From a virus, in IMG/VR virus record IMGVR_UViG_3300046477_000710, positions 1 to 26,874 of that record: a stretch of 26,874 bases of DNA. The stretch is one strand, 5' to 3'. Position 1 is the first letter of the stretch; the number at the start of each line of letters is the position of its first letter. The notes under the pieces were generated by a model. The model saw only the letters and a program-made list of their open reading frames with translations, searched no databases and had not been told where the DNA came from. Both the position numbers and the translations under genes were made by a program. Below, piece by piece: positions 5,020 to 26,192 of this stretch.

Positions 5020-5976
5020 CTAGATAGTGAAGAACCCGTCATGGGCACTCACGTCCGTCGCGCGCAGATCATACAACGCCTCTTCGTCGGCCGCCTCGGT
5101 GGCGTCCGGGCCGGTCGGGAGTGACGTGGCTTCCTCGGCCGTACAGGCCGTGTTGCGAAAGTCGGGGGTGCCGGCGGCGGCCCGGTCGGCGGCCACGACG
5201 AGCGCCGCTTTCTGCTCCGAGCGGCGTCGCCGGCGGTCCTCAAGCGGTTCCTGCTCCCCCGCGCGAAGCCGCCAGGTGCAGTAGTACGCGATGGCGGCCG
5301 CCATGATGCGGTCGTCATGGGCGCCCTTGGCCGCCTCGGCTTCCCAGAGCGCGCCCTGCGTCTGGAAGTCTTTGAGTTCCTCGTGCAGGTGCGGCGAATG
5401 CGTGATGAGGTCCGGGAGGCCGGTGACCGCGTCGCGGGTCGTCAGCGCCGTGCGGAACTTGTCGAGGAGGATCGGCCGGGTGCGGGTCGTCGTCATCCAG
5501 CCGATTTTGGTCGAGAACCGCGCCGACGGGTCGGCCGAGTCGTAGTACTCCCACCGGTAGAAGTGGGTGTACCCGAGGTGGAGTTGCAGCGTGTCCTGGG
5601 TCGACAGGCCGTGGTTGTTGCACTCGATGGCGACGAGCGCCTCGTACCCGGACTCGTCGCGGTACCAGTCGCCGAGCGCCAGGAGAATCGACGCGAACTC
5701 GGCTGGCGCGATGGTGTCCGAGGCAAACTCGGCGACCTGCTCGTCGGGCTCGTCGATCGATCCCTGGCGGACGACTTGGGCGACCGAGCGATCGAGCCCG
5801 AGGCCGTCGCCGATGTCGGCGCCGATGACGTAGCGGTAGGTACCGCGCCGACGAGGCGGTTCGTAGCAGAGGAGGAGATCCAGACCGAGCGAGGTCGCCT
5901 CGGCGGTCTCGCGGAGTTCCTGCGCCGACGGCACGCGGAAGCCCATGCCGGCCGGGAGGAGGAGCGGCTCGCTCAT
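5020..5976 (-). CDS. Terminase large subunit, nuclease half
   Basis: This 318-aa protein carries the RNase H-like nuclease fold of the large terminase and lacks the ATPase half. Candidate metal-binding acids are D54/D57 in YVIGADIGDG, E118 in ALVAIECNNHG, and D221/D222 in AHDDRIMAAAIA. The order and spacing match the C-terminal nuclease of TerL. The segment LCYEPPRRRGTYRYVIGADI matches the usual linker-to-nuclease junction. The C-terminal 70 residues are hydrophilic and low complexity. Its ATG overlaps the stop of the ATPase gene by 4 bp (ATGA), so the two are probably translationally coupled. The enzyme would cut concatemeric DNA during packaging. Confidence in domain identity is high. Confidence 0.85.
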   Translation of the reverse strand: MSEPLLLPAGMGFRVPSAQELRETAEATSLGLDLLLCYEPPRRRGTYRYVIGADIGDGLGLDRSVAQVVRQGSIDEPDEQVAEFASDTIAPAEFASILLALGDWYRDESGYEALVAIECNNHGLSTQDTLQLHLGYTHFYRWEYYDSADPSARFSTKIGWMTTTRTRPILLDKFRTALTTRDAVTGLPDLITHSPHLHEELKDFQTQGALWEAEAAKGAHDDRIMAAAIAYYCTWRLRAGEQEPLEDRRRRRSEQKAALVVAADRAAAGTPDFRNTACTAEEATSLPTGPDATEAADEEALYDLRATDVSAHDGFFTI

Positions 5977-7286
5977 GGGCGTGGCGCTCCCGATCGGCCC
6001 TCGTCGCTACGTTCCCACGCGCGGAGGGTCGCGATGTCTTTGGCCGGCTCGATTTTCAGAATCCGGGGGGCCGACTCCTGCCGGCGGACGGCTTCGAGGG
6101 TGGCGGCGGTGAAGACCGAGCGGCCCGAGTACTGAAACATCTCGGCGGGGGTGGCCGGGTACTCCTCGTAAAACTTGTACAGGTCGCCCTTCTCGGTGTA
6201 CATGTCGCGCGTCTGCTCGTACCAGGCGAGCTGCTCGCGGGTGAGGCGGATGGTCTTGCCGAAGAGCCACTCGGGGGATTCGCGCTCGACGGCCACCGCA
6301 TGGGCGAGGGTGCCGGCGTCGGGCTGCCAGGTGAGCGACGTCGGCACGGCCCAGTACTTCTCCGGCTCGACGTACCACGGGATGAAGATGTTCCGGAAGC
6401 GGGTTTTGCCGCGCGCGGTGGCCGTCCAGTGCGTGTGCCACCAGTCGTGCCGGCCCTTGGCGGTCGACTCGAAGCCGGCGAAGGACCGCGGGCGACGCGG
6501 GATGGCCGGGATGAGGCCGTCGTCGATCTGGTCGGGCTTCTCCCAGGTCGAGAGTTCCGACAGGTGCACCCGGCCGAAGGTTTTGCCGCGGCCGATGTTG
6601 CCCTTGGCTTTGGCGTCGTCGGCCAGGCCGCCGCGGGACGACTTGCCCCAGGCGGTCCGGACTTCCGTCCGGTTGGTCAAGGTCGACCAGAAGCGGCCCG
6701 TGTCGTAGGCCCCGAGGGTCGGGAGCAGCCACCACGGGAGTTCCTTGACGATGCCCTCGAAGAGGCTGAAGAGGTACTTCGACTGGTCCTCGACGTCGGC
6801 GGCGACCAGGCCCCGGAGCGCCGTTTGCGTCGTCGCCCCGTGCGCCATGATGACTTCCAGTTCGGTCGAGAGGCCCAGCTGGCGGGCTTTGCCGACGTTC
6901 ACGAGGACGCCGTTCTGGCTGCCGGCGCGGAACTGGTCGATCTCCATGGCGGCGACGTGGTCGAGGAAGAGCTGCTGCGACGCCCAGCGCGGATGGATGG
7001 GCGCGGCGTCCTGGGTCTCCTTCGTGATGACGGCCCAGGCGTCACTCCAGTAGCGGTAGTCGAGCTTGGCGAGGAGCAGCTCGTGCGTGATGAAGTCGCT
7101 CTCGGCTGAGGTGAGGGCGCGCGAGGCGGGCTCGCCCTTTTTCTTCGGCGCGGCTGAGGCGAGCTGGTCGCGCATCGTCCAGCGTTCGTCGAGGGAGCGG
7201 CGGACGAGGCGGCCGCCCGGGAGCGTCGCGGCCAGTTGCCGCGACACCGCGTGCTCGGCACGCGCGATGACCTCGGGGTGGAACAC
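5973..7286 (-). CDS. Terminase large subunit, ATPase half
   Basis: The 437-aa protein has the packaging ATPase signature. Numbered from GTG at 7286, the Walker A variant of terminases, KARQLGLST, lies at 133-141. The Walker B region RVHLSELSTW is at about 239-248 with E244 as the likely catalytic acid, and the coupling motif FESTAKG is at 272-278. The frame ends soon after the segment YPATPAEMFQYSGRSVF, where a full TerL would continue into the nuclease. The nuclease is instead encoded by the next gene. The GTG start is inferred. It lies just after the TAA of the upstream gene (7297-7299), and the ribosome site (AAGG) is rather far, so the start is less certain than the gene. Confidence 0.85.
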   Translation of the reverse strand: MFHPEVIARAEHAVSRQLAATLPGGRLVRRSLDERWTMRDQLASAAPKKKGEPASRALTSAESDFITHELLLAKLDYRYWSDAWAVITKETQDAAPIHPRWASQQLFLDHVAAMEIDQFRAGSQNGVLVNVGKARQLGLSTELEVIMAHGATTQTALRGLVAADVEDQSKYLFSLFEGIVKELPWWLLPTLGAYDTGRFWSTLTNRTEVRTAWGKSSRGGLADDAKAKGNIGRGKTFGRVHLSELSTWEKPDQIDDGLIPAIPRRPRSFAGFESTAKGRHDWWHTHWTATARGKTRFRNIFIPWYVEPEKYWAVPTSLTWQPDAGTLAHAVAVERESPEWLFGKTIRLTREQLAWYEQTRDMYTEKGDLYKFYEEYPATPAEMFQYSGRSVFTAATLEAVRRQESAPRILKIEPAKDIATLRAWERSDEGRSGAPRP

Positions 7287-7296
7287 GCGGTCGAGC

Positions 7297-7500
7297 TTAC
7301 ACCTTGGGGTGGGCGGCCAGCCACGCCTCGTCGGTGGCGATCGAGGACGCGCAGGCCGAGAGGTACGCGGCAATCACTTCCGCATCGGTCGGCGGCGTCG
7401 CGCCCGGCGCCTGCGACGTGAACTTCGCCCGCAGGAACGCGATGAGCGCCGGGAGTTCGGCGATGGCGATATTGGTGAGCGACTCGACGGGGGTGGCCAT
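7297..7500 (-). CDS. Small phage protein (67 aa), unknown
   Basis: The sequence reads as a helical, mildly hydrophobic protein (ESLTNIAIAELPALIAFLRA) followed by a Pro/Thr linker and a second helix (DAEVIAAYLSACASSIATDE). The stop at 7297-7299 is about 10 bp from the likely terminase ATPase start. The ATG overlaps the end of the upstream lipoprotein gene by 1 base. No family is recognised. Genes here often encode small terminase or virion accessory proteins, but there is no helix-turn-helix visible, so I leave function open. Confidence 0.68.
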   Translation of the reverse strand: MATPVESLTNIAIAELPALIAFLRAKFTSQAPGATPPTDAEVIAAYLSACASSIATDEAWLAAHPKV

Positions 7501-10235: not shown

Positions 10236-10751
10236 CTAGACGGTGAGCGCCGCCGCCGTCCGCGTCATCGCCGCCGTCCCGGGGAAGAGATCGACGACCT
10301 CGTCCCCGGCCTGCACGTTGAGCAGGTCGAGAATCCACGCGCAGACCGCGTCGGGCTTCGCGCCGGTGAGCCCCTTCTTGAGCGTGATCGGCGCAACGAT
10401 GAAATCCTTGGGCGTCGTCTGCTTGCCGCCCTTGACTGGCGGCGGGTGGTGGGCGTTGCGGCCGCCGCGATAAATTACCGGCTCCCACGCGTAGCAGGGA
10501 CGCACACCCTTCTTGAACGCGCAGAAGGACTTCACCCACGCGGCTACGCGCACGTCAGGCGGGCACAGCGGCAGCAGCTCGCGCAGCGAGGGCGACGACG
10601 CGCTGAGCGCCCAGCCGTCGGGGAACTCCTCGGTCAGTCGGTGGATCAACGTCGCGTGCGTCGCCAGATCGTTCCAACAGCCGGAGCGGTGATCGTGGCC
10701 GTAGAGGGCGCAGCAACCGAGGTAGGGCGGATCCGCGTAAGCCACTCGCAT
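10236..10751 (-). CDS. Small DNA methyltransferase, permuted motif order (171 aa)
   Basis: Catalytic motif IV, DPPY, is at residues 7-10 and the SAM-binding motif I, DLFPGTAAM, is near the C-terminus (from about 154). This IV-before-I order is that of beta-class amino-methyltransferases (N6-adenine or N4-cytosine). The protein lacks room for a target-recognition domain, so specificity would come from the small inserts. No restriction enzyme is adjacent. Phages use such orphan enzymes to protect DNA or mark it. It starts with ATG at 10751, without a clear Shine-Dalgarno sequence, close after the stop of a membrane protein gene, which suggests coupling. Confidence 0.78.
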   Translation of the reverse strand: MRVAYADPPYLGCCALYGHDHRSGCWNDLATHATLIHRLTEEFPDGWALSASSPSLRELLPLCPPDVRVAAWVKSFCAFKKGVRPCYAWEPVIYRGGRNAHHPPPVKGGKQTTPKDFIVAPITLKKGLTGAKPDAVCAWILDLLNVQAGDEVVDLFPGTAAMTRTAAALTV

Positions 10752-12236: not shown

Positions 12237-12548
12237 TCAGCGCCGCACGAACGGCAGCGGCGACACGTCGTCGGGCGGAATCTCTTCCCGCGCGGTGAGG
12301 CCGTCCAGCTCCCGCAGGATTTCTTCCGGCTCGGGGTCGCGGTTGAGCTGGCGGCGCAGGCGCGTCTCAATCTCGTAGGCGGCCGCCATGCGCCGGTCGT
12401 CCACGTAGGTGATGGCGGCGCTGGCTTCGTCCTCGGGCGAGACGGCCAGCGGGACGAACTTCCCTTCGGCGACGTTGGCGAGGCGCTCGAGCGCGTCGGC
12501 GATCCGATCGAGCGAGCGCGAACTGCGCAACAAATCGGCCAGGCTCAC
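12237..12548 (-). CDS. Small helical protein (103 aa), unknown
   Basis: Reads VSLADLLRSSRSLDRIADAL, ERLANVAEGKFVPLAVS, then a segment with MAAAYEIETRLRRQLNRDPE and a Pro-rich end. The GTG at 12548 overlaps the TGA of the methylase gene (GTGA), and GGAGGG is placed 7 nt upstream. A further in-frame ATG upstream lies within that Shine-Dalgarno, so it is rejected. The RLxRxLxRDPEPEEI piece vaguely recalls the sigma-factor or helix-turn-helix style (NRDPTPEEIA), but one motif is not enough to call function. Unknown protein in the methylase operon. Confidence 0.65.
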   Translation of the reverse strand: MSLADLLRSSRSLDRIADALERLANVAEGKFVPLAVSPEDEASAAITYVDDRRMAAAYEIETRLRRQLNRDPEPEEILRELDGLTAREEIPPDDVSPLPFVRR

Positions 12549-13051
12549 GAGGCGGCCCTCCACACGACGATCACCGAGGCGAAGAAGCCGCTGGCGCGAT
12601 ACGGGCCGTCCGTGAGAAAGCGCACACGGCCGCGAATGTACCGGACCTCTGCGCCGGGTTTCACCACGTCGTCATGCCACCAGGCGAGGTCGGTCGAGGC
12701 CGGCAACAGGCCGACCACGAGCGGACATCCCGCACGGACCTCGTCGGCCGCTTTGGCGGTCCACGCATACACCTCTCGGCCGTAGGGCGGGTTCATCCAG
12801 ACCCGCTCGCCGGCCCACGAGGGGATCAGCCCATTGGACGACTCGCCGTAGAACTTGGGCACCTTCGCATTGGCGGCCGTGGCACACACGTCCAACGTGA
12901 AGCCGAATTCCGCCTGCAACGGATCGAACACTTCCGGCGGGGTCGCCCACTCGCGGCCATTCCCGTTGTAGCGGCCATTGTTCTTGGCGCGCATCCCGCC
13001 GAGCACGGCCGCGTTGTCTGAGGCGCCCAGCGTCCGCCGTGTGAGGCTCAT
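12545..13051 (-). CDS. dam: Phage N-6-adenine DNA methyltransferase (Dam family)
   Basis: The sequence matches the phage Dam methylase family. EWATPPEVFDPLQAEFG is at residues 34-50, followed by TLDVCATAANAKVPKFY. The catalytic NPPY is at 87-90 inside GERVWMNPPYGR, and a closing segment EVRYIRGRVRFL is present. Its 168 aa is normal for this family. It transfers a methyl group from S-adenosylmethionine to adenine in DNA; the target sequence cannot be read from the protein. No partner nuclease is present, so protection against host restriction or regulation of packaging is likely. The ATG overlaps the upstream TGA (ATGA). Confidence 0.88.
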   Translation of the reverse strand: MSLTRRTLGASDNAAVLGGMRAKNNGRYNGNGREWATPPEVFDPLQAEFGFTLDVCATAANAKVPKFYGESSNGLIPSWAGERVWMNPPYGREVYAWTAKAADEVRAGCPLVVGLLPASTDLAWWHDDVVKPGAEVRYIRGRVRFLTDGPYRASGFFASVIVVWRAAS

Positions 13052-18455: not shown

Positions 18456-19460
18456 CTAGTGGACCTTCGCCTCGGCTGGAGGGTCCGCAAAGAGGCCGCC
18501 CGGGCGGGTCGGATCGTACTCCACGCGCATCCAGATCCCCCGGGCGAGCTGGCGCACGAAGCCCATTTCCTTCAGGCGTTGAAGGCGCTTGAAGATAGTT
18601 TTGGGCGTGACGCCCAAGGGGGTAGCCAGCGCGAGGAGTTCGGCGGTCGCGATCTGCCCCGGTTGCTTCGGCATGAGCGCATGAATGTCGAGGAGTTCCT
18701 GTGTGAGCACCGACGGTTCCTCATCGTTGACCGTGGGTTCCAACGGAACAAACGAGAGGAGGCCGGTCAGTTTCGCGCGCTTCAGGTACCACGTCATCGC
18801 CGCGGCGTGATGCGGGTTCACGTAGCACTGGAGGTACCCTGACTTGTCCCCAGTCTCGTCCGGGCCGGCGAGGTTCATCTGCGTCGACGTGAAGCCGAGG
18901 AGCGCCCCTGTTCCGTTAATTCGGTCCTGCATGCGTAGGTACCGCTCGCCCTTGTCCGCTTTCTGCTTGGAGGTGTGGCACACGCCCACCAGGCAATGCC
19001 CCGTGTCCATGGCGTACCGCTGGATGGCGATACAGTTGAGCGCCACCCGATGGTAGTTGAGTAGGTTCCCCCCGAGGAACAACGCGATCGGGTCGATGAA
19101 GATGATCCCAGGCTCGGGCATCTCCAGCCGGTCGATGCACTCGATGAGCGCCGGCGCCGAGTCTTGGACGCGCTCGCTCAGTTTGAGCAGGTCGAAGCTC
19201 CGGTCATCGACGAGCGAGTACTGGGCCACCTCGGGGAACTCCATCCGGTGGAACCATTGCTGGGAGTCGCGCCAGCTCCGATCCCCGGTGAGATAACCCA
19301 CCGAGGTCCGGCGGACGGGGCGGCCGGCAATCTCGCCCCCGCCGTGAAAGAGGGTGGCCATGAGCGCAATAAAGGCGGTTTTGCCGACGCCGCTGGCCCC
19401 AGAGAGGAGCGACAGCGACCCAGCCTCAAAGACATTAGGCAGCGGATCGTGTGTGTGCAT
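18456..19460 (-). CDS. repA: RepA-like (AAA_25 type) replicative helicase/ATPase
   Basis: Walker A SGASGVGKT is at residues 20-28, Walker B GIIFIDP at 118-124 with D123, and a sensor-like stretch GVCHTSKQK at 159-167. This is the RecA-fold layout of RSF1010-RepA-type helicases (AAA_25). The C-terminal third (ALATPLGVTPKTIFKRLQRL then KEMGFVRQLARGIWMRVEYD) looks like a winged helix. At 334 aa it is close to family length. It would unwind DNA or load helicase at an origin. It is the only leftward gene in the rightward block and is transcribed toward the AT-rich island. The gene appears leaderless: the -10 box is 8 nt before its ATG. Confidence 0.85.
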   Translation of the reverse strand: MHTHDPLPNVFEAGSLSLLSGASGVGKTAFIALMATLFHGGGEIAGRPVRRTSVGYLTGDRSWRDSQQWFHRMEFPEVAQYSLVDDRSFDLLKLSERVQDSAPALIECIDRLEMPEPGIIFIDPIALFLGGNLLNYHRVALNCIAIQRYAMDTGHCLVGVCHTSKQKADKGERYLRMQDRINGTGALLGFTSTQMNLAGPDETGDKSGYLQCYVNPHHAAAMTWYLKRAKLTGLLSFVPLEPTVNDEEPSVLTQELLDIHALMPKQPGQIATAELLALATPLGVTPKTIFKRLQRLKEMGFVRQLARGIWMRVEYDPTRPGGLFADPPAEAKVH

Positions 19461-21592: not shown

Positions 21593-21841
21593 ATGGCGAG
21601 ACGACTGACGAAGACGAGACGACGGACGACGACGGTGCCGAACGGGGGCACGGTGACGTACCCCACGATGCCCGAGCTGATTCACCCGCTGCCGCCGCCG
21701 CGCGGGTTCTTCACGCAGCTCCCGTCGACCGAGCTGGTGGCGTCGCTCCACGGGGCGCTCATCCAGACGATTAACTACGGGGTCAAGCCCAGCGACCTCG
21801 AGCTGCTGCGCGACGAGTGCGTGCGTCGAGGGCTGCTGTGA
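21593..21841 (+). CDS. Small basic protein (82 aa), unknown
   Basis: Starts with a basic, Thr/Arg-rich segment (MARRLTKTRRRTTTVPNGGT), then Pro-rich sequence (PELIHPLPPPRGFFTQLPST), and a helical end (DLELLRDECVRRGLL). ATG at 21593 is preferred to a GTG that overlaps the previous stop, because GAGGAG lies 8 nt before it. The stop overlaps the next GTG (GTGA). The basic N-terminus suggests nucleic-acid contact. No family is recognised. Confidence 0.68.
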   Translation: MARRLTKTRRRTTTVPNGGTVTYPTMPELIHPLPPPRGFFTQLPSTELVASLHGALIQTINYGVKPSDLELLRDECVRRGLL

Positions 21842-22275: not shown

Positions 22276-22298
22276 CCGGCCCTGTCACGGGCCACGGA

Positions 22299-22462
22299 GA
22301 GACTGACGACATAGAAGGTGCGTAAGGCTCGCTCAGCCCGAGGCCAAATCGTCCTGTGAACCATCGGGCAAAGAAACATGGACGTCGCACCTTGTTGAGG
22401 TTCTTGCCGCTTTCGCCTCGTCGACAAAAGTGAAGCGGCTGCATATCGGAGACTGACGACAT
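22299..22462 (+). ncRNA. Structured 5' leader bounded by a 14-bp direct repeat
   Basis: The repeat GAGACTGACGACAT occurs at 22299-22312 and 22449-22462, exactly 150 bp apart; the second copy includes the ribosome spacer and start of the ATPase gene. Between them the RNA can form a three-way junction. P1 is AAGGTGCG (22315-22322) with CGCACCTT (22386-22393). P2 is GGCTCG (22326-22331) with CGAGGCC (22339-22345). P3 is CGTCC (22350-22354) with GGACG (22380-22384). A further hairpin P4, GCCGCTT (22406-22412) with AAGCGGC (22433-22439), follows. No protein frame is convincing. It could be a regulatory leader, attenuator or inserted element; no known RNA class is recognised. Confidence 0.5.
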
Positions 22463-24029
22463 GACTGAAACCGTAACGACCCCAGCGGACGCGACGCCAA
22501 AAACCGACGAGACGAGCGCCGCCTCGCCCTCGGCCACCCTCGTGATGGGCCCGAGTGGCTCGGGCAAGTCCAGCTTGCTCGCCACGGCCGCCGAGTACTG
22601 CTGGGAGACCTTCAAGAAGGTGGCCCTCTACTACTGCGCCGATGGCGGGGGCTACCCCACGCAGATGCAGGCGCTCATTAACCACGGCATCGTGCGCGTG
22701 TGGCGCGTGCGGAGCCGCTCGGGGCCGGGACTCGTGCCCGAGACGATCCACCGGGCCAGTCAAGGCTGGTGGCCGGTCTCGGTCGACCCGAGGACCGGCG
22801 AGACGGCCGCCTCGGTGAAGCTCGTGCCGCCGATGACCGAGACCTACGAGACCCGCTGCCCCCACGGCCACCTCGTGCAGGTGTCGCCGATCCAAGCGTT
22901 CCCGCCGGCGGGGAAGCCCTGCCCCACGTGCGCGGTGCTCGTGAGCGCGGCCAACATGCAGGTGACCCGGACCAGCCGGCGGACCAAGGGGTTCGAGAAC
23001 GTGGGCGCGGTGCTCCACGACGGGCTCACGAGCTACTCCAGCTGGCTCATGGACGACCTGAGTCGCCGGAACCTGGGCGGCGAGCAGAGCAACCTCGGCG
23101 GGATTGTCGAGTCGGGGAGCCTGCGGTTTGGCAGCAATAACCGCGCGCAGTACGGGTTCACCCAGGCGAGGGCGGAGAACTGGATCCTCAATGCCCAGTC
23201 GATTCCCGGCATGGTGATGTCGCCCATCTGGACGGCACTCCCCAAGGAAGGCGACGACGAGAGTCTCACCGTCGTCGGGCCGGACTTTGCAGGGAGCGCC
23301 AAGATCGCGGCCGCGCTCCAGTGGTTCGGGAACACGTTCGAGGTGATGGAGGTCGAGAAGGACGGCAAGAAGTACCGGCGCATCATGCTGTCGCCCTACG
23401 TCGACGCGGCCGGCCGCCGCCACATGTGCAAGACGCGGAGCGCGCCGGGCTATCTGCCCGCCTACGTCGAGGACGAGGTCGTCACCGAGACCGGCAAGCG
23501 CCCGGACGGCCGCACGTTTGTGGACTTCAGCCTCGGCTCGGTCTTCCGCATGATCGACCGCGTGCGCGTCGAACTCGAGTCCGACTACAAGGGGAAGTAC
23601 CCCGACGCCCCGGGGTTGGGCGCCGGCGAGGTCGGGGACGCGGCGCCGGAGGGTCCGGCCTCGAGCGGGGTGACAGCCGCCGGAGTGACACCCGCGTCTC
23701 CGATCGCGCCGGTGGGGGCGGCCGCTGGGCCGCGTGCGCTGAGCCCCGCTGAACTGGTCGCCCAACGGCAGCGGCGGCCGTCGGTGGCTGCGCCACCGCC
23801 GGTGGGGGCCACGGTCGTGGCCCCACAGACCGCCGCCCCACCGAGTGGCGAGGGGGCGGTCCTGGGACCGCCACCGGACGCCCCGCCGCCCCAGCCGGCC
23901 ACCAGTGGCCCGACCGCGCCGCCGCCCGTCTTGGCCGCGCCCACCGGGCCCAAGCCGATTTCGGTCAGCCCTCCCGGACGACGGCCATCGACGCCCACGC
24001 CGCCGCCTGCGGAGACGAAAGTCGAGTAG
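22461..24029 (+). CDS. P-loop ATPase of recombination/replication type (AAA_24/Sak4-like)
   Basis: Walker A GPSGSGKSS is at residues 30-38, and a candidate Walker B AVLHDGLTS has D187. This arrangement is seen in phage nucleotide-binding proteins of AAA_24 and Sak4 (RecA-like annealing/recombination) type. A possible zinc site is formed by CPHGH and CPTC (C133, C154, C157). The last 130 residues are Pro/Ala-rich and probably disordered. At 522 aa it is longer than Sak4 (about 250). It sits between the nuclease and the SSB candidate, which fits a recombination role. The start is ATG at 22461, with GGAG 9 nt upstream inside a duplicated leader. Confidence 0.75.
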   Translation: MTETVTTPADATPKTDETSAASPSATLVMGPSGSGKSSLLATAAEYCWETFKKVALYYCADGGGYPTQMQALINHGIVRVWRVRSRSGPGLVPETIHRASQGWWPVSVDPRTGETAASVKLVPPMTETYETRCPHGHLVQVSPIQAFPPAGKPCPTCAVLVSAANMQVTRTSRRTKGFENVGAVLHDGLTSYSSWLMDDLSRRNLGGEQSNLGGIVESGSLRFGSNNRAQYGFTQARAENWILNAQSIPGMVMSPIWTALPKEGDDESLTVVGPDFAGSAKIAAALQWFGNTFEVMEVEKDGKKYRRIMLSPYVDAAGRRHMCKTRSAPGYLPAYVEDEVVTETGKRPDGRTFVDFSLGSVFRMIDRVRVELESDYKGKYPDAPGLGAGEVGDAAPEGPASSGVTAAGVTPASPIAPVGAAAGPRALSPAELVAQRQRRPSVAAPPPVGATVVAPQTAAPPSGEGAVLGPPPDAPPPQPATSGPTAPPPVLAAPTGPKPISVSPPGRRPSTPTPPPAETKVE

Positions 24030-24989: not shown

Positions 24990-26192
24990 ATGGCCCGCGT
25001 CCCGTTCTTGATCGTTGGCGACGCGCCCGAGGGCCACTCTGGCCTCGGGCGCATTCTCCGAGACCTGCGCCGTCGGCTGACCGCCGACGCCGCGTTTGCG
25101 GGCGGCCTCGACCTCGACGTGAAAACCTGCGCTTGGGTGGCCGACCCCAAGTACCGCGGCACGCCCCCCTGCGGGCTGGTCACGGGCCTGGCCGACTGGC
25201 GGTTCATGAACATCACGTCGTGGGGCCGGGAAGCGGTGGAGTCGGCCTGGCAGTACTTCTACGGCGACCGGCCGGGCATCGTCTTCACGATCTGGGATCC
25301 GGCCCGGTGCCACGCGTTTTTGGAACTGCCGCCGCACCTGACGAAGTGGGGCTACTTCGCGGTCGATGGCCACAACCGGCACGGGACGTTTGGCGGGCCG
25401 GCTGCTGAGGCGGTGAAGGGGTACCAGCGCGTGCTCGCCTACGGGGCGTACGGCGCCGAGGTCCTCACGACGGTCCGGGCCGACGGCACGCACGTCGAGG
25501 CCCTCCCGCATGGGATTGACACGAATGTCTTCAAGCCGACGATGACGGCCGCCGCGCGTGCCTCCGCCGAGCGCCTCATCGGCGCGCGGCTGACGCCCCA
25601 GACGCGCGTCATCGGCTGTGTCGCGACCAATCAAGCGAGGAAGGACCTCGGGCTGGTCTTCGAGACGATGGCGAGCCTCATCATGCGCGGACAGGACGTC
25701 CACCTCTGGTTGCATATCGACGAGCAGGTGACCGAGGCGTGGTCGGTCCCGCAGCTCTATGAAGACTACCCGGAACTGCGCGGCCGGCTGAGCGTGAGCC
25801 AGTCGGTGACCGACGAGGTGCTCGCCGCCTGCTACGCCAGCTGCAGCGTGACGATCGCGCCGGGCCGGGGCGAGGGGTTCGGGTACCCGATCCTCGAATC
25901 ACAGTGGTGCGGCACGCCGGTCGTCGGGTTCGACTACGCCGGCGGGGCCGAGTACCTGCCAGCCGCTGGGCAGGCCCGCGCGTACATGTACCGACCCGAG
26001 GGGCCGTACAACCTGCTGCGCCCGATCGGGGAGGGAGACCACTGGGCGAGCCTCATCGAGGCGCTCCTCCTCACCCCGCCCACGTGGACGATGCCCCCGG
26101 CCGCCCACCAGACCCGCTGGTCGACCCTCTGGCCCGAGTGGCGCGAGTGGGTGGCGGCTGGCTTGACCGATTGGAGAGAGACCCATGGCTGA
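24990..26192 (+). CDS. GT-B glycosyltransferase (GT4-like)
   Basis: The 400-aa protein has a Rossmann-like N-terminus (FLIVGDAPEGHSGLGRILRD) and a C-terminal donor-binding domain. The most diagnostic stretch is EGFGYPILESQWCGTPVV at about residues 293-310, the E-x(7)-E region of GT4 family enzymes (Glycos_transf_1). The segment HGIDTNVFKP at about 175 matches the usual GT4 HGVD-x-x-x-F-x-P motif. It transfers a sugar from a nucleotide-sugar donor; the acceptor is unknown. It lies within replication genes rather than virion genes, which points to DNA base modification but does not prove it. There is no signal peptide. The next gene starts inside its end (8-bp overlap). Confidence 0.82.
   Translation: MARVPFLIVGDAPEGHSGLGRILRDLRRRLTADAAFAGGLDLDVKTCAWVADPKYRGTPPCGLVTGLADWRFMNITSWGREAVESAWQYFYGDRPGIVFTIWDPARCHAFLELPPHLTKWGYFAVDGHNRHGTFGGPAAEAVKGYQRVLAYGAYGAEVLTTVRADGTHVEALPHGIDTNVFKPTMTAAARASAERLIGARLTPQTRVIGCVATNQARKDLGLVFETMASLIMRGQDVHLWLHIDEQVTEAWSVPQLYEDYPELRGRLSVSQSVTDEVLAACYASCSVTIAPGRGEGFGYPILESQWCGTPVVGFDYAGGAEYLPAAGQARAYMYRPEGPYNLLRPIGEGDHWASLIEALLLTPPTWTMPPAAHQTRWSTLWPEWREWVAAGLTDWRETHG

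Follow-up and report, generated by a model that had tools for sequence, protein, structure and literature searches.

The mycobacteriophage LRRHood differs from phage Cali by a 1.35-kb segment that carries four genes and lies between 29-bp direct repeats, of which the relatives have one (PMC3029335). Its authors weighed acquisition against loss and favoured recombination with an unknown partner, the donor being one that could not be reconstructed (PMC3029335). Morons are also extra DNA between phage genes, and consist of an open reading frame with its own promoter and terminator (PMC3029335). The element MPME1, of 439 bp, has inverted repeats (IR-L and IR-R) and a 6-bp addition at its left end, and occurs at several sites (PMC3029335). 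There are thus precedents in the literature for phage insertions flanked by direct repeats, but we found there no element matching the 136-bp one considered here.

This segment lies in the window, that is, the whole stretch of 26,874 nucleotides that was analysed, a 26.9-kb phage contig of a virus record in which portal and terminase genes are weakly recognisable. Two minus-strand open reading frames, 5020-5976 and 5973-7373, which overlap by 4 bases, both match the terminase large subunit, so that this gene (5020-7373, minus) appears to be split. The features at the start of the ATPase gene, to which the following discussion refers, are:

22277-22295, plus strand: GGCCCTGTCACGGGCC, a short inverted repeat located after the stop of the upstream gene and before the insertion site; by sequence and alignment, in L002 and not in L003
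22299-22312, plus strand: direct repeat copy 1, GAGACTGACGACAT; the next base is A, and a start codon is absent here
22313-22448, plus strand: insert, 136 bp, 56% GC; missing in L002 and L003
22449-22462, plus strand: direct repeat copy 2, GAGACTGACGACAT; it ends with the A and T of the ATPase ATG
22461-24029, plus strand: P-loop ATPase gene, 522 aa, with the Walker A motif GPSGSGKSS and a weak Sak4-like PHROG match

The 14-bp duplication reported in the original prediction is indeed there, as two exact copies with a start-to-start spacing of 150. The repeat stops at 14 bp, the neighbouring bases on both sides being mismatched, and it is the sole 14-mer that is repeated within 300 bp anywhere in the window. 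However, ca 0.27 exact 14-mer pairs at this distance are expected by chance per window (8 in 30 shuffles), so that the repeat on its own counts for little. It becomes decisive in the light of two related contigs, which have the same flanks with one copy of the repeat and without the insert.

These contigs were found in a homologue search with the downstream ATPase, which gave four relatives, L001-L004. A wider search for ATPase relatives, aimed at finding more leaders, returned the same four and added none. The filled allele, with the same 150 bp as in the window, is present in L001 and L004, while in the empty allele of L002 and L003 a single GAGACTGACGACAT leads into the ATG and first codons, which agree with those of the window. 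L002 and the window are identical at 90 of 90 bases upstream and 60 of 60 bases downstream of the site, and the alleles therefore differ by precisely 136 bp and one copy of the 14-bp repeat. Around the site, the three filled contigs (the window, L001 and L004) share an identical sequence over 2.5-4 kb and are for this reason counted as one event. An assembly error behind the filled allele is unlikely, as the allele is present in three contigs and is not the chimera of one sample.

The empty allele of L002 and L003 thus backs the proposal that a self-contained unit came to lie at the translation start and that this start was duplicated in the process. The insert is real, and probably goes back to a single insertion accompanied by a 14-bp duplication. 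We infer the direction, insertion rather than deletion, from parsimony in a comparison that has no outgroup; a perfect duplication at both borders is the trace that an insertion would leave. The GC content of the insert is 56%, compared to 68% for the window, which is below that of 98% of windows of the same size. This difference in composition suggests a foreign source for the 136 bp.

Turning to the downstream gene, the leader of the empty allele is CACGGAGAGACTGACGACATG, in which 11 nt separate GGAG from the ATG. The leader of the filled allele, where copy 2 comes directly after ...ATATCG, is ATATCGGAGACTGACGACATG, and here the distance is 9 nt; the GGAG of this allele is made up of the preceding G and the start of copy 2. 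The final two bases of the second copy are the A and T of the ATPase start codon, as had been pointed out. Copy 2 accordingly rebuilds both the Shine-Dalgarno sequence and the ATG, which are intact, and leaves the ATPase frame unbroken, so that expression of the flanking gene is predicted to be kept. That the second copy ends at the start codon would then be no sign of a special element, because an insertion survives at this place only if the ribosome-binding site and the start codon remain.

The gene had been called a recombination ATPase. This name depends on a weak P-loop match to the Sak4-like PHROG 124 (E 2e-5, residues 15-45). Among the relatives, the N-terminal 400 residues of the protein are almost identical, and the proline-rich C-terminal part (window 23700-23880) is hypervariable, with an 18-residue difference. 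The ATPase module is adjoined by a glycosyltransferase gene (GT group 1, 24990-26192). A second P-loop ATPase is encoded on the opposite strand (18456-19460, minus) and belongs to the AAA_25 / DnaB-like helicase type (Pfam E 1.9e-13).

The explanation that we consider probable, with moderate confidence, is a single recent mosaic event, in which 136 bp of foreign DNA that appears to be non-coding became part of the region with the ribosome-binding site and start of the P-loop ATPase gene, 14 bp of the target site being duplicated in the process. This could have taken place through recombination with another genome, either illegitimate or at a short homology, or through a template switch during replication, with the return point 14 bp upstream of the point of departure. 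The insertion would have been retained because the Shine-Dalgarno sequence and the start codon were restored by the duplication, the ATPase then being translated from copy 2. The 136 bp themselves would have no function. An ordinary event of this kind would be a clean snapshot of phage DNA uptake at a gene start, with the gene unbroken and its ribosome-binding site rebuilt by the duplication.

Such events would not be isolated in this phage group. At least seven further presence/absence segments were found among the same phages, with short direct repeats at their ends, of 3-15 bp except in one case, where the repeat is imperfect and of 38 bp. Several of these segments are whole genes at gene boundaries. 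Compared to them, the 14-bp repeat is longer than most, and the insert has no open reading frame whereas the others mostly carry one.

Examples are as follows. G001 (L027/L028) and G002, but not the window, have an extra small gene of ca 75 codons precisely where the gene at 26185 has its ATG (window 26184-26189); both ends of this extra gene carry CATGGC (6 bp). A methyltransferase gene (12545-13051, minus) is in the window and not in G004, with border repeats of 5 bp, and an open reading frame at 10236-10751, minus, is missing from G002 and G003, with border repeats of 5-6 bp. These two segments are ca 500 bp each, and one of them is a DNA adenine methyltransferase (phrog_111). Further segments were seen near 21802 and 16243 (G002) and near 864 and 20202 (G003).

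Short direct repeats readily allow the DNA between them to be deleted, and these phages both gain and lose genes at boundaries. The filled state could therefore be the older one, the 136 bp being what is left of a longer segment or gene cassette that was situated upstream of the ATPase, and L002 and L003 having lost this remnant through recombination between the 14-bp repeats. In line with this, one frame of the insert is open up to a TGA inside copy 2, like a gene that overlaps the ATPase leader; such a gene would end in ...CATATCGGAGACTGA. The frame is also very weakly similar (E 0.1, 13/34 identical) to the start of carboxymuconolactone decarboxylases from Rhizobium, yet this similarity finds no support across 398 Pseudomonadota genomes, and the frame is unmatched in Pfam as well. 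Altogether, three of the six frames are open, but 23% of the shuffles equal that, and the GC contents by codon position, 0.53/0.53/0.60, have a non-coding look. The peptides from the open frames were searched against Pfam, plasmids, phages and the 398 genomes, and the best match, at E 0.1, was rejected as unproven. With the frames, the codon positions and the peptide searches all negative, no coding frame was found, in agreement with the earlier statement that the segment holds no credible protein. Finally, also a deletion would leave the perfect 14-bp border repeat to be accounted for, since it demands a duplication at some time. We thus regard the loss of an older segment as rather unlikely.

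Another option is that the insert is a very small non-autonomous mobile element, moved in trans, with the 14 bp as its target duplication. The clean insertion, the exact direct duplication, the empty site and the foreign composition are all what such an element would give. However, terminal inverted repeats are absent, the sole 8-bp inverted repeat joining the 5' end to an internal site, and the search for the unit at other locations, as proposed in the original prediction, found no second copy of the insert in the collections covered (the relatives' contigs, IMG/VR, and phage and plasmid collections). When 2.9 million viral contigs were scanned with seeds at five positions of the insert, the matches beyond the two filled contigs were all isolated and of 17-22 bases, and a 19-base seed gave only chance hits in 84,980 genomes; exact seeds miss diverged copies, so these results exclude near-identical copies only. 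The surroundings of the isolated 17-22-base matches could not be aligned, and their contexts are unrelated. We consider the mobile element distinctly improbable, although a second copy found elsewhere would place the insert among the candidates for the smallest mobile elements of phages.

As for more distant matches, BLASTN of the insert yielded zero matches in phages and, in plasmids, only matches of 20-51 bp in unrelated contexts (best E 0.04). A DNA search of the 398 Pseudomonadota genomes gave 81% identity over 46 bp and 90% over 29 bp, which were judged to be chance. Neither a diverged homologue of the insert nor a donor of the 136 bp was found among the viral, phage, plasmid and genome searches.

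We have also considered the possibility that the segment functions as a structured leader RNA in control of the ATPase, either in the manner of a riboswitch or by self-processing. Its position in the 5' leader would be appropriate, and pairings can be drawn:

22315-22322, plus strand: 5' arm of P1, pairs with 22386-22393
22386-22393, plus strand: 3' arm of P1, pairs with 22315-22322
22406-22439, plus strand: P4 hairpin, GCCGCTT...AAGCGGC

The predicted complementary strings exist, AAGGTGCG/CGCACCTT over 8 bp and GCCGCTT/AAGCGGC over 7 bp, but stems of these lengths are at the chance level, as among dinucleotide shuffles a stem of at least 8 occurs in 11.6%, and at least two stems of at least 7 in 6.8%. 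The folding of the whole segment amounts to -47 kcal/mol, compared to -48.5 +/- 4.0 kcal/mol in the shuffles (z +0.38), and 125 of 200 shuffles are as good; the insert folded alone has z +0.19. Folding that does not exceed the shuffled controls was among the outcomes that the original prediction itself had named as refuting it. Locally, the P1 domain (z -1.05) and P4 (z -1.34) slightly beat the shuffles, both being non-significant and picked post hoc. A search of Rfam 15, both at the gathering threshold and at E up to 10, returned zero matches to riboswitch, ribozyme or intron families. The segment is moreover missing from relatives that retain the ATPase gene, and all filled copies are identical, with zero variation at the pairings and hence no covariation. 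The RNA reading of the insert, and with it the suggestion of an undescribed structured RNA, is not supported by these results, and a leader RNA in control of the ATPase is in our view highly improbable. The combined version, a self-contained 136-bp element with neither a protein nor inverted ends, which inserts at ribosome-binding sites with a 14-bp duplication and acts as leader RNA for its target gene, is the least probable of the readings considered.

It remains to compare the locus with the known systems. The insert shares the 14-bp target site duplication and the empty site with MITEs and other non-autonomous transposons, whereas their terminal inverted repeats and further copies were not found for it in the collections searched. 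Like MPME1/2, it is very small and is inserted in one phage, the corresponding site of a relative being empty; unlike MPME1, it measures 136 bp and has neither terminal inverted repeats nor a second copy. With morons and gene-boundary indels it shares its context, the extra DNA being placed between genes, missing from a relative and compatible with the functions of its flanks. A moron has an open reading frame, a promoter and a terminator, whereas within the insert a notable start-to-stop reading frame and promoter-like and terminator-like sites are all absent. In comparison with LRRHood, the present segment is gene-free and of 136 bp, with a 14-bp repeat that lies over a ribosome-binding site, as opposed to 1.35 kb, four genes and 29 bp. 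In both cases, however, the extra DNA lies between exact direct repeats that are single in close relatives. The presence and absence of a segment between syntenic flanks, which characterises a phage mosaic indel at a gene boundary, is found here too, and the best reading of the insert is that it is one more of the mosaic segments with short direct repeats of this phage group.
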